A stretch of DNA of 37,154 nucleotides from Candidatus Nomurabacteria bacterium (GTDB lineage: Bacteria; Patescibacteriota; Saccharimonadia; Saccharimonadales; Saccharimonadaceae): positions 1 through 37,154 of the forward strand of contig JAISJL010000028.1 of assembly GCA_031261545.1 (NCBI GenBank). Reading direction: 5' to 3'. Of the stretch, positions 4,392-34,866 are shown one piece after another. A model generated the notes under the pieces. The model saw only the letters and a program-made list of their open reading frames with translations. It searched no databases and was not told where the DNA came from. The position numbers were made by a program, and so were the translations under genes. Within the stretch, counting starts at the first letter, position 1; the number at the start of each line of letters is the position of its first letter.

Positions 4392-4463
4392 AATTGTTTC
4401 CTACTAGCGCCAACCCCAATACACTTTTTCTTCACTCGTTACAGTCGATGCTTCGCATCGCGT

Positions 4464-4500
4464 ATAATCCGCCGTTACTCGCTTCGCTCGCGGGGATTAT
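4464..4500. repeat. Short palindromic repeat, family 2 copy A
   Basis: ATAATCCGCCGTTACTCGCTTCGCTCGCGGGGATTAT; similar to copies at 19313 and 32253. Confidence 0.75.
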
Positions 4501-4521
4501 CCGCCTCACTCGTGACTAAAA

Positions 4522-4573
4522 TCTAGCTTTCGGACTTCGTCCGCCACCTAATAGGTGGACGCTAGATTTTAAT
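4522..4573. repeat. Nested inverted repeat
   Basis: AAAATCTAGC...GCTAGATTTT enclosing CGGAC/GTCCG and ACCTAATAGGT. Confidence 0.7.
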
Positions 4574-18297: not shown

Positions 18298-19179
18298 TTA
18301 TTTACCAAACATTGCAAGGATGTCATAGGCTATTGCCGAGACACTCTCGGTTTCGTCTTGCGGGAACCGCAAGAAGTTCTTGCAGATTAGCTTTGATGCT
18401 TCCTCAACGGTTTCGCTTTCACGAAGACTGTCGAAGCTTTTACCACCGCTCCAACCAGAGTTATCCGAACCGATAAAACGCAACTGCGTGGTTACCGTTT
18501 GATAACTTTTAGGGTAGGTGGATTTGAGCTCGTCGAGCCGACTTCCGCTGAGCATAAACAAGCCAAAGGAACCCTCATCGGCAGTGCAGGCATCTTCATC
18601 GGCGTAGGACGCCTTAAACATGGCTGCTGCAAAAACGGCCGCTTGTTGCTCGGAATACTTCATCGTCCAGTTAAAATAGTCATAGCACTGGATAATGTTT
18701 GCATATTGGTTAAAGCCAATATGCATCCCGCCAATCATTGGCGCGTCGAAGCCATCGTCAGGGATGATTTCGTTGTGCAATCTGCGGCTTTCCTCATAGG
18801 CGAGCCATGGATTATCGGGGTCGTCGAGCGGATTCTCCGCTAACATTTCCGACAATTTTACTTCGGCGCGTTCGTAGATTTCCTTGTCGTCGCCGTCGAA
18901 ATACTCTGGGTAGCTCAGCACACCGTGGTTGTTGATGTAACTCCACCACGCAATTTCTTCTGCGCGAGAGTCAATACCTACTTGACGGACGCCTTCCATC
19001 AGTTCTTCTTCCGCCTGTCTTTCGGCTTCTCTTTCAGAATCGACATAGTCAGAATAGTTGTATCCGGCCTCTGCCGAAGTGCTGGAAGTTCCATTTTTAG
19101 AGGAACAACCGATAAAGAACACCAAGATGACGAGTGCTAACAACCCTAAGGCCGCTGCCGTTTTTTTACTAATGCTCAT
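18298..19179 (-). CDS. Secreted lipoprotein, possibly with phage-tail-lysozyme-like domain
   Basis: N-terminal lipoprotein signal LALVILVFFIGC; AAMFKASYADEDACTADEGSFGLFMLSGSRLDELK resembles lysozyme-like repeats; SD AAGGAGG. Confidence 0.6.
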   Translation of the reverse strand: MSISKKTAAALGLLALVILVFFIGCSSKNGTSSTSAEAGYNYSDYVDSEREAERQAEEELMEGVRQVGIDSRAEEIAWWSYINNHGVLSYPEYFDGDDKEIYERAEVKLSEMLAENPLDDPDNPWLAYEESRRLHNEIIPDDGFDAPMIGGMHIGFNQYANIIQCYDYFNWTMKYSEQQAAVFAAAMFKASYADEDACTADEGSFGLFMLSGSRLDELKSTYPKSYQTVTTQLRFIGSDNSGWSGGKSFDSLRESETVEEASKLICKNFLRFPQDETESVSAIAYDILAMFGK

Positions 19180-19262: not shown

Positions 19263-19291
19263 ATTATAGCATACTTTGCCTGAAAAGTCAA
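19263..19291 (-). promoter_or_regulatory. Promoter of the lipoprotein gene
   Basis: Minus strand TTGACT - 17 bp - TATAAT, ~70-nt leader with CACTCAG/CTGAGTG hairpin and AGGAGG. Confidence 0.8.
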
Positions 19292-19312
19292 GCGTTTTCT
19301 ACGAAAACGCAG

Positions 19313-19354
19313 ATAATCCGCCGTTACACGCGCCTGCGGCGCTGCGGGGATTAT
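19313..19354. repeat. Short palindromic repeat, family 2 copy B
   Basis: ATAATCCGCCGTTACACGCGCCTGCGGCGCTGCGGGGATTAT; 38/42 identical to copy C; abuts pth stop codon. Confidence 0.85.
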
Positions 19355-19869
19355 CAATAGTTCTTAACTAATCCTGCCCATTCGCGGAGTTTGGTGGCGG
19401 TTTTTAGGGCGATTTCGGGGAGTTTTTGTTGTTCATCGTAGCTGAAACGGCTGAGGACGAAGGCGTCGGCGTCGGTTTGGGCTTTGGTGCCGTCATCTGT
19501 GCCGAGGCGGAGGCGGGCGAAGTTGTTGGTGCCAAGATGGGCTATGATGGATTTTAGGCCATTGTTGCCGCCGGCTGAGCCGTTCATACGCAGGCGCAAG
19601 TCGCCAAAAGTGAGATAAAAATCGTCGCAAATGACTAATAAATCGCGCGAAATGTTGATTTTGTAAAAGCGGGCTTCGCGGGAAATCCACTCGCCCGACA
19701 GATTGTAAAAGCCTTCGGGTAGTAAAAACTTGACTTTGTCGCCGAGAATTTGCTCGATTTGGCTGACAAAATCCGGTTTCGCCAGCAAAAACTGCAAAAC
19801 TTCGTCGCCGAGGTTGTGGCGAGTGTGTTTGTAGGCGGCGCCGTTACCGAGGGCTGCGATGAGTTTCAT
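19354..19869 (-). CDS. pth: Peptidyl-tRNA hydrolase
   Basis: KLIAALGNGAAYKHTRHNLGDEVL, VICDDFYLTFGDLRLRMNGSAGGNNGLKSI. Confidence 0.93.
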   Translation of the reverse strand: MKLIAALGNGAAYKHTRHNLGDEVLQFLLAKPDFVSQIEQILGDKVKFLLPEGFYNLSGEWISREARFYKINISRDLLVICDDFYLTFGDLRLRMNGSAGGNNGLKSIIAHLGTNNFARLRLGTDDGTKAQTDADAFVLSRFSYDEQQKLPEIALKTATKLREWAGLVKNY

Positions 19870-31883: not shown

Positions 31884-31902
31884 TTCATCGGTTAACATAT
31901 TG

Positions 31903-32016
31903 AAAGCGCTTTTCACAACCATAATTTCCAAGATACCGTTACACGCCGGGAACCTTCGGTTCTCGGGTTGCACTTCGCCTTTAGTATCTTGGAAATTAGG
32001 TTGTGAGCGCGCTTTT
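31903..32016. repeat. Long palindrome, family 1
   Basis: AAGCGCTTTTCACAACCATAATTTCCAAGATACC versus reverse complement of AGTATCTTGGAAATTAGGTTGTGAGCGCGCTTTT; inner hairpin CCGGGAACC-TTC-GGTTCTCGG. Confidence 0.85.
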
Positions 32017-32019
32017 ATG

Positions 32020-33567
32020 TTATTTATACTCCCAAATCGTTCCGTCGTCTGTGTCGCGCAAAACCACGCCGTATGTTTCGGTGATTTGGTCGCGGAGTTG
32101 GTCGGAGAGTTGCCAGTTTTTGCTGGTTCGGGCGGCTTCGCGGTCCTTTATGAGATTATAGGCTTCATCTTGCAGGTTGGGGGTGGAGTTTAATAGATTT
32201 AGACCCAACAAATCGTCGATGAATTGCCAAAAGTCAAGCGCCTTCGACGCAGATAATCCGCCGTTACACGCGGCTTCGTCGCTGCGAGGATTATTGGGGT
32301 TTTGATAGATTTTTGGCATTAGTTCGTCGATTTTGGCGATGGTTTGGGCAGAGGTGAGGTTGTTATTGACACCTTCAAGAATAGGATTGGTAAAATCACC
32401 AACCATCATCTCGTGTTCGGCGCTCCGGGCCGCTTGGCCAAGTCTTACCGGCCCCTCAATGAGATTGGGCGATTTTACCTGCCATCTGAGCGCGGCAAAA
32501 TTGCGCCATTTGGTCAGGAGTTGGTGGGCGGCGGCGAGGTTTTCCCAAGAAAAGTTGCGTTCAGAGGAAAAGTGACCTTGAAGAACCCACATGCGATAGT
32601 CCATATAGTTGTAACCCTTTTGTTCCAAATCGTAAAAGGTGAGGATATTACCCTTGCTTTTGCTGATTTTGGCGCCGTCGATGGTGATGAAGTTGTTGTG
32701 AAGCCAATAATTTGCCAAAATTTTGCCAAAGGCCGCTTCACTTTGGGCGATTTCGTTGGTGTGGTGGACAGGGATGTGGTCGATGCCGCCGGTGTGGATG
32801 TCGATTGTTTCGCCGAGGAGGGAATGGATGATACAGGAGCATTCGATGTGCCAACCAGGGTAGCCAAGGATAGCGCCAGTTTCATCTGTGGCTAAATCTT
32901 TTTGGTTTATGGCTGTAAAATCGAGAAGATCTTTGATGTCATCTGGCAAGGGCCATTGCATGGCGTGATCTTCGTGCTTCGCGATAAACTTCCAGAGAGC
33001 AAAATCGCTCAGATGGCGCTTCTGGGCGTTAAAATCAACGCGTGCGCCAGCTTCAAGGCCCTTTAAGTCCAGATGACCGAAATCGGCGTAGCGAGGGAAT
33101 TTGCTGGTGTCGTAATAGATGCCGTCGGTAGTGGTGTAGGCATAGCCCTTTTCCGTTAGGGTCTTAATCATCTGTAAATCCTCGAAAATGTAATCCGTGG
33201 CTTTGGCGATGGCGACGGGTTCGGTGCAGTTCAACCCGCGAAAATGACGCAGAAAGTCATCTGTGAAGAACTCGGCTATTTGCCAAACGGTTTTTTGTTG
33301 CTTTTTGGCGGATTTTTCCATTTTGTCTTGACCTTCGTCCGAATCTGATGTCAGATGCCCGACATCTGTGAGGTTCATGACGCGCTTGACACGATAGCCG
33401 TTTAATTGTAGAGTGCGCACCAATAAGTCCCAATAAACATAGGCGGTGAAATTGCCAATGTGAGCGAAGTCGTAAACCGTTGGTCCACAGGTATAGATTT
33501 TGACCTCGTTTTGGTCGATAGGCTTAAAATCGTCGATTTGACGGGTTAGAGTATTAAAAAAGCGCAT
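32020..33567 (-). CDS. cysS: Cysteinyl-tRNA synthetase
   Basis: YTCGPTVYDFAHIGNFTAYV, HIECSCIIHSLLGETIDIHTGGIDHIPVHHTNEIAQSEA, KISKSKGN; start revised to MRFFNTL. Confidence 0.95.
   Translation of the reverse strand: MRFFNTLTRQIDDFKPIDQNEVKIYTCGPTVYDFAHIGNFTAYVYWDLLVRTLQLNGYRVKRVMNLTDVGHLTSDSDEGQDKMEKSAKKQQKTVWQIAEFFTDDFLRHFRGLNCTEPVAIAKATDYIFEDLQMIKTLTEKGYAYTTTDGIYYDTSKFPRYADFGHLDLKGLEAGARVDFNAQKRHLSDFALWKFIAKHEDHAMQWPLPDDIKDLLDFTAINQKDLATDETGAILGYPGWHIECSCIIHSLLGETIDIHTGGIDHIPVHHTNEIAQSEAAFGKILANYWLHNNFITIDGAKISKSKGNILTFYDLEQKGYNYMDYRMWVLQGHFSSERNFSWENLAAAHQLLTKWRNFAALRWQVKSPNLIEGPVRLGQAARSAEHEMMVGDFTNPILEGVNNNLTSAQTIAKIDELMPKIYQNPNNPRSDEAACNGGLSASKALDFWQFIDDLLGLNLLNSTPNLQDEAYNLIKDREAARTSKNWQLSDQLRDQITETYGVVLRDTDDGTIWEYK
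32253..32294. repeat. Short palindromic repeat, family 2 copy C, inside cysS
   Basis: ATAATCCGCCGTTACACGCGGCTTCGTCGCTGCGAGGATTAT; 42 bp = 14 codons, encodes NNPRSDEAACNGGL in the cysS frame. Confidence 0.85.
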
Positions 33568-34710: not shown

Positions 34711-34866
34711 TAACCCCCTGAAGAATCATTATTTCGCTCTCCAAAACCTAATTCCAAACAGGCCATCTTATCTTGAAAAGAAGCTGGGAACGTGATACAT
34801 TGCAACTCGTCTTTAGCCTGTTTGCGAATTAGGTTTTGGAGAGCGAAAATGATTTGTGAGGGGCTA
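34711..34866. repeat. Long palindrome, family 1-related
   Basis: TAACCCCCTGAAGAATCATTATTTCGCTCTCCAAAACCTAATTCCAAACAGGC versus reverse complement of GCCTGTTTGCGAATTAGGTTTTGGAGAGCGAAAATGATTTGTGAGGGGCTA. Confidence 0.9.

Follow-up and report, generated by a model that had tools for sequence, protein, structure and literature searches.

Palindromic repeats lying in frame within cysS and other conserved genes of the family Saccharimonadaceae

The cysteinyl-tRNA synthetase gene (cysS) of a genome from the family Saccharimonadaceae contains a palindromic repeat that also occurs in intergenic DNA, which raises the question of whether this segment is a native part of the gene or an element inserted into it in frame. 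The best-known examples of essential genes with palindromic elements lying in frame come from Rickettsia, the first case, and from Wolbachia. The window analyzed here is a stretch of 37,154 nucleotides, contig C8 of a 506-kb genome that is 76% complete (G000); positions given without a contig refer to this window. The genomes studied are fragmented, and those named are metagenome-assembled. According to the results below, the cysS segment is very probably a small dispersed palindromic element inserted in a surface loop, with an element of a second family in the preceding loop, both representing a class of short non-autonomous palindromes that enter genes and intergenic DNA.

Palindromic segments of the cysS gene

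The cysS gene (32020..33567, minus strand) encodes a protein of 515 aa, identified by Pfam (tRNA-synt_1e, E-value = 8e-79, and CysS_C), by CysRS hits in the PDB, and by alignment with relatives, and it carries two in-frame palindromic inserts. The first, assigned to the S family from homology, loop length, and pLDDT, comprises 16 codons, NNPRSDEAACNGGLSA, within the open frame (32248..32295, minus strand; residues 425-440), of which 32252-32295 form the palindrome proper. The CysS-encoding strand at 32253-32294 reads NNPRSDEAACNGGL. A sequence-only reading of this DNA had placed the repeat in frame and matched it to an intergenic copy at 19313-19354 in 38 of 42 positions; both statements were correct, and over 48 nt the two copies agree at 92%. 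The shared upstream sequence that it had also reported was recovered by a BLAST search of the 506-kb genome with the intergenic copy, in which homology extended over ~65 nt (82%, E-value = 1e-14; query positions 1-71), included AAAAGTCAAGCG, and continued to about position 32230. It remains unresolved whether this extension belongs to the insert or is native: in cysS, AAAAGTCAAGCG encodes ALDF, which fits a helix present in relatives, so that it need not belong to the insert. If only the 16 best-matching codons are counted, the helix start that is left, SKALDF, fits the family; all 22 codons of homology would take in ALDF. The palindromic character claimed for the segment can be traced at 32252-32295, but it has decayed there, and the copy folds no better than shuffled sequences (z 0.0 and z -1.4 in two tests). 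The repeat in cysS is real and larger than first noted.

Alignment with the CysS proteins of 27 relatives (37-60% identity) revealed that the loop linking helix 406-421 to helix 440-454 is the longest in the set, with 35 residues against a median of 25 (range 11-31), which supports the reading of the repeat as an in-frame insertion. The indel exactly covering the repeat that had been proposed as a check was not obtained, because the loop length varies among relatives and the edges of the insert are fuzzy; the net gain over the median was 10 aa, compared with 16 codons of repeat or 22 codons of homology. In the same-genus genome G001, the corresponding loop lacks the repeat. The AlphaFold2 model of CysS had a mean pLDDT of 87.5, with values below 50 at residues 423-436, overlapping the S insert, and at residues 366-378, in the loop of the second insert, so both inserts overlap low-confidence stretches between confident helices.

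The second insert, overlooked in the sequence-only reading, lies ~95 nt from the first (32389..32479, minus strand) and is assigned to the F family on the basis of core matches, alignment, and pLDDT. It is a 21-bp imperfect inverted repeat (arms 32389-32409 and 32459-32479, 76% complementary) around the core GCGCTCCGGGCCGCTTGGCCAAGTC (32420..32444, plus strand). Its loop comprises 39 aa, compared with 17-34 aa in the 27 relatives, and a net excess of ~16 codons (about 48 nt) over G001 is contained within a 91-nt imperfect palindrome.

Element families in the genome and its relatives

The S family, with elements of 44-66 nt, consists of four copies: that in cysS, the only genic one seen, and three that appear intergenic, located at 19284..19356 (plus strand), at 4463..4501 (plus strand; shorter centre; BLAST and covariance model), and at G000:C23:2897-2935. 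The first of these three was delimited by fold, BLAST, and covariance model; its palindrome (19312-19355) is preceded by a hairpin, GCGTTTTC/GAAAACGC, and the copy folds better than shuffles (z -4.6). One S copy contains a compensated pair change, ATAATGC/GCATTA. A covariance model gave the four copies E-values of 1e-10 to 6e-9, the model having been built from the same four; it found only these in G000 and, in 60 relatives, at best weak matches (E-value of 0.001 or worse).

The sequence-only reading had proposed a search for further genic copies and their reading frame. Such copies were found, mostly of other families. This genome has one of F type in cysS and one of B type in lepA, and relatives have many whose frame stays open across the host gene. 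The F element measures ~90 nt. Its core is identical at 25 of 25 positions in queA of G001, where it is in frame and ~44 residues replace the few of most orthologues; queA of G000, from the same genus, has no insert. A nearly identical core lies in frame in ksgA of G001, whose palindrome appears longer than the insert when compared only with the length typical of KsgA. Seven matches to the cysS F region were detected in G001, and the core was found in G002 as well, other copies in these two genomes matching it with a variable gap of one or two bases. Other core sites lie between long arms that differ by locus, with no long frame across them.

B-family elements are palindromes of about 112-120 nt. 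A DNA search of 61 genomes gave B matches in G000 (11), G007 (nine), and G026 (three). Of 394 members of the family, 16, belonging to 9 of 61 genera, contained B-like sequence. Carriers of B elements in a public collection are named Candidatus Saccharibacteria, Nc150P4bin6 and UBA949. The lepA gene of G000 contains a 120-nt palindrome in frame (G000:C30:2299-2418; z -9.8 against shuffles), which encodes part of LepA residues 182-231, a stretch of 50 residues standing where LepA of E. coli (3CB4) has 3. In G007, five copies are clearly genic and in frame (murC, typA, lepA, tkt, and a Sua5-TrmB fusion), and all five are read in one frame, as ARLSKDGERVSDEPRDDGREERR or a close variant, with three frames open. 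TypA of G007 carries an insert relative to 5A9V, and its murC copy folds only marginally better than shuffles. Related sequences occur in ~20 housekeeping genes of other genera of the family, typA, murC, and tkt included, many of the genes being identified by Pfam. In other genera, B-like stretches were seen in open frames of valS, prmC, priA, dinB, uvrD, gatB, a RecB-like gene, dnaB, uvrA, lysS, gatA, leuS, argS, mnmA, clpC, and others. Some of the weak B-type matches (20-50 nt, E-value about 1e-5) were assigned to the family by the encoded peptide, without alignment of orthologues. Shorter, pre-insertion orthologues were established for lepA, typA, queA, and cysS; ksgA and several B-type hosts were not among the alignments.

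Different elements struck two loops independently. At residue 64, lepA carries a B element in G007 and a different palindrome in G021, and the queA loop holds F in G001 and B in G031. The in-frame palindrome of G021:C4 lepA starts with GTCATTGCGA and ends with ATGAC, recalling the ATGAC motif of RPE-4, -6, and -7 (PMC3767692). As a separate observation, lepA is split at about residue 320 in several relatives (G001:C31, G003:C3, G004:C32, G007:C50, G020:C24, and G021:C4). In the cases read, the first part stops after ...VGDTVTLxKY, and the second frame starts 1-6.6 kb later near ...MIEPLPGYKEVKPFVYAGFF; no intron match was found for the split genes in Rfam. The lepA gene of G000 is single and intact.

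Arm complementarity and the possibility of functional structure

Some genic arms are gene-specific yet complementary, and complementary arms differ between copies. In eight B copies of G000, 84.6% of the cells of the named structure were paired and 20 of 35 pairs were changed on both sides, one-sided changes being almost absent; the covariation score was 0.442, compared with at most 0.178 when partners were slid. The structure was derived from one of the eight copies scored, so the excess over the slid versions is partly built in, and relatedness of the copies can inflate the excess over shuffles. The RNAalifold consensus of all B copies recovered the inner hairpin only, because their arms differ. 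In queA of G031, the arms are peculiar to that gene and extend into the conserved codons for RLSV: GGCTGTCTGTT, which is the outer left arm, is located within these codons, and the sequence complementary to it forms the right-hand end of the insert. It is conceivable, though we hold this only tentatively, that the short core alone is carried between sites, each site forming or restoring its long complementary arms by inverted copying of the neighbouring gene sequence. The 91-nt palindrome around a net insert of about 48 nt in cysS and the apparently longer palindrome of G001 ksgA are in line with this. The arms of G031 queA fit template switching, as proposed for mitochondrial coding palindromes (PMC6649704), which is an inference. 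Inverted duplication of native flanks, considered as an origin common to all arms, is suggested by G031 queA and by cysS and is not shown for G001 queA; it is kept only as this tentative reading.

Other palindromes were observed in the same genome. A long palindrome of family A (31899..32020, plus strand; z -9.0) lies just downstream of cysS and shares CCGTTACACGC with the S family. Three near-identical, near-full copies of family A occur on one contig (G000:C18:10602-10708, 16727-16832, and 17945-18054), in one of which CACAACC/GGTTGTG is replaced on both arms by TACTACC/GGTAGTA. Family C comprises intergenic hairpins resembling three-way junctions (window 4517-4571; G000:C1:31321-31372; C12:6005-6058) with the core TCGGACTTCGTCCGCC and outer stems that vary between copies and are still complementary. 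Family D is a long palindrome at 34732-34848 with 23-bp perfect outer arms and kin at G000:C1:18162 and C5:1599.

The strong covariation of the B copies would also be expected if the hairpins were functional RNA or DNA structures under selection (attenuators, RNase sites, terminators, or promoter-linked hairpins), with the coding copies regulating their gene. The intergenic S copy indeed abuts a promoter-like site (19263..19291, minus strand; TTGACT, 17 nt, TATAAT; consensus match only) directed towards the gene at 18298-19179, and the 12 bases of AAAAGTCAAGCG overlap the -35-like TTGACT there (minus strand, 19286-19291). The hairpin GCGTTTTC/GAAAACGC or a similar one, placed directly upstream of a TTGAC -35 box and in contact with it, was seen in three genomes (window 19263-19310, G001, and G007). 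This explanation is nevertheless improbable: neither the genes that hold copies nor the positions of the copies within them are related, the fold is lost in the cysS copy, Rfam gave no match in the window, and a same-genus queA orthologue is without the insert.

Under the preferred reading of inserted elements, a short palindromic element would move into genes and intergenic DNA by an unidentified enzyme or by replication errors; such mobility is inferred. Most genic insertions would be lost, whereas those keeping the frame in permissive loops would persist and be translated; the cysS insert is proposed to have been kept because the reading frame and fold were preserved. Translation, which open frames in essential genes lead one to expect, is likewise inferred, as is neutrality for the host protein. 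Templated repair (template switching) may preserve or restore arm complementarity, which we also infer. Neither a mobilising enzyme nor a target-site duplication was found, the orthologues being too diverged for duplications to be read. The B and F patterns had no match in viral contigs, and spread by viruses was rejected on this ground.

Relation to known palindromic elements

REPs have been reported inside ORFs of uvrA, uvrD, and tRNA synthetases in several bacteria, some REP dimers lying within long palindromes (PMC3733652). GTAG- and CGTC-tagged REPs in ORFs resemble the elements described here, which are also short palindromes in uvrA, uvrD, and tRNA synthetase genes (PMC3733652), and the size, palindromic form, and intragenic copies could suggest REPs moved by RAYT (Y1 transposase). 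We regard this as quite unlikely. PF01797 is absent from B-carrying G000 (76% complete) and G026, and it is present in many relatives where no B copies were found; B-carrying G007 has one PF01797 gene. CGTC repeats have been reported from five phyla, Saccharibacteria not among them. As no RAYT association was found, the elements are not classed as RAYT REPs.

It is very unlikely that the cysS segment is original gene sequence from which the intergenic copies arose, even though only four copies are known and the adjoining ALDF fits a native helix. The segment is absent from all 27 relatives, so the conservation in orthologues lacking the repeat family that the sequence-only reading had named as refuting insertion was not met, and the other copies have a palindromic design in common, which includes a compensated change, and their centres differ. 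An artefact of assembly or binning of metagenome-derived genomes can practically be dismissed: the window and many relatives are fragmented assemblies, but the inserts leave the reading frame intact and are found again in genomes and genera independent of one another, and the contigs that contain them continue as normal coding sequence to either side.

For the inserted elements, the closest parallel is found in the Rickettsia palindromic elements (RPEs), which measure 105-146 bp and occur both between genes and in frame within conserved genes; one RPE-bearing product studied, guanylate kinase, is active (PMC2229807, PMC3767692, PMC10969869). Besides intergenic copies, the elements described here share with RPEs and the Wolbachia palindromic elements an in-frame position in conserved genes that are unrelated to one another, conservation of the peptide encoded, and exposure of its site in the protein (PMC3767692, PMC2229807, PMC10969869). 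The resemblance to RPEs suggested by the sequence-only reading holds in behaviour, in that in-frame copies lie in several unrelated conserved genes (lepA, typA, murC, tkt, queA, ksgA, cysS, and others), and the use of one element frame across different genes is met by the five clearly genic G007 copies. The elements differ from RPEs in their phylum, in the length of the S element (only 44-66 nt, compared with about 100-150 bp), and in forming S, F, and B families without obvious mutual sequence link; in addition, the arms of F and some B copies are locus-specific and closely matched, whereas loss of repeat identity over time is reported for RPEs (PMC6649704). Consequently, while the elements work like RPEs or intragenic REPs, membership of the RPEs is not claimed in the absence of homology data.

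Two further systems are comparable. In the mitochondria of Nematomorpha, near-perfect inverted repeats are likewise translated in genes, and template switching has been proposed to maintain their arms; both arms there encode conserved native protein, whereas here there is a repeated core (PMC6649704). MITEs (ERIC, NEMIS, and RUP) are also small non-autonomous palindromic repeats, some of which give in-frame fusions (PMC2229807). Inverted arms are present here as well, but neither a TA target duplication nor a parent insertion sequence was identified (only PF01797 was sought).

No published description of such elements for Saccharibacteria or the Candidate Phyla Radiation was found among openly licensed papers. 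Parasitic-looking DNA appears to be translated into essential proteins, with translation inferred. That a lineage with reduced genomes in another phylum has several families, some of which struck the same loops independently, would show a general route of protein change, and such replicate cases would allow tests of element spread and neutrality. The maintenance of coding palindromes could be approached directly through the locus-specific complementary arms, and the inserts would account for unusual stretches of low complexity in Saccharibacterial proteins as annotated.
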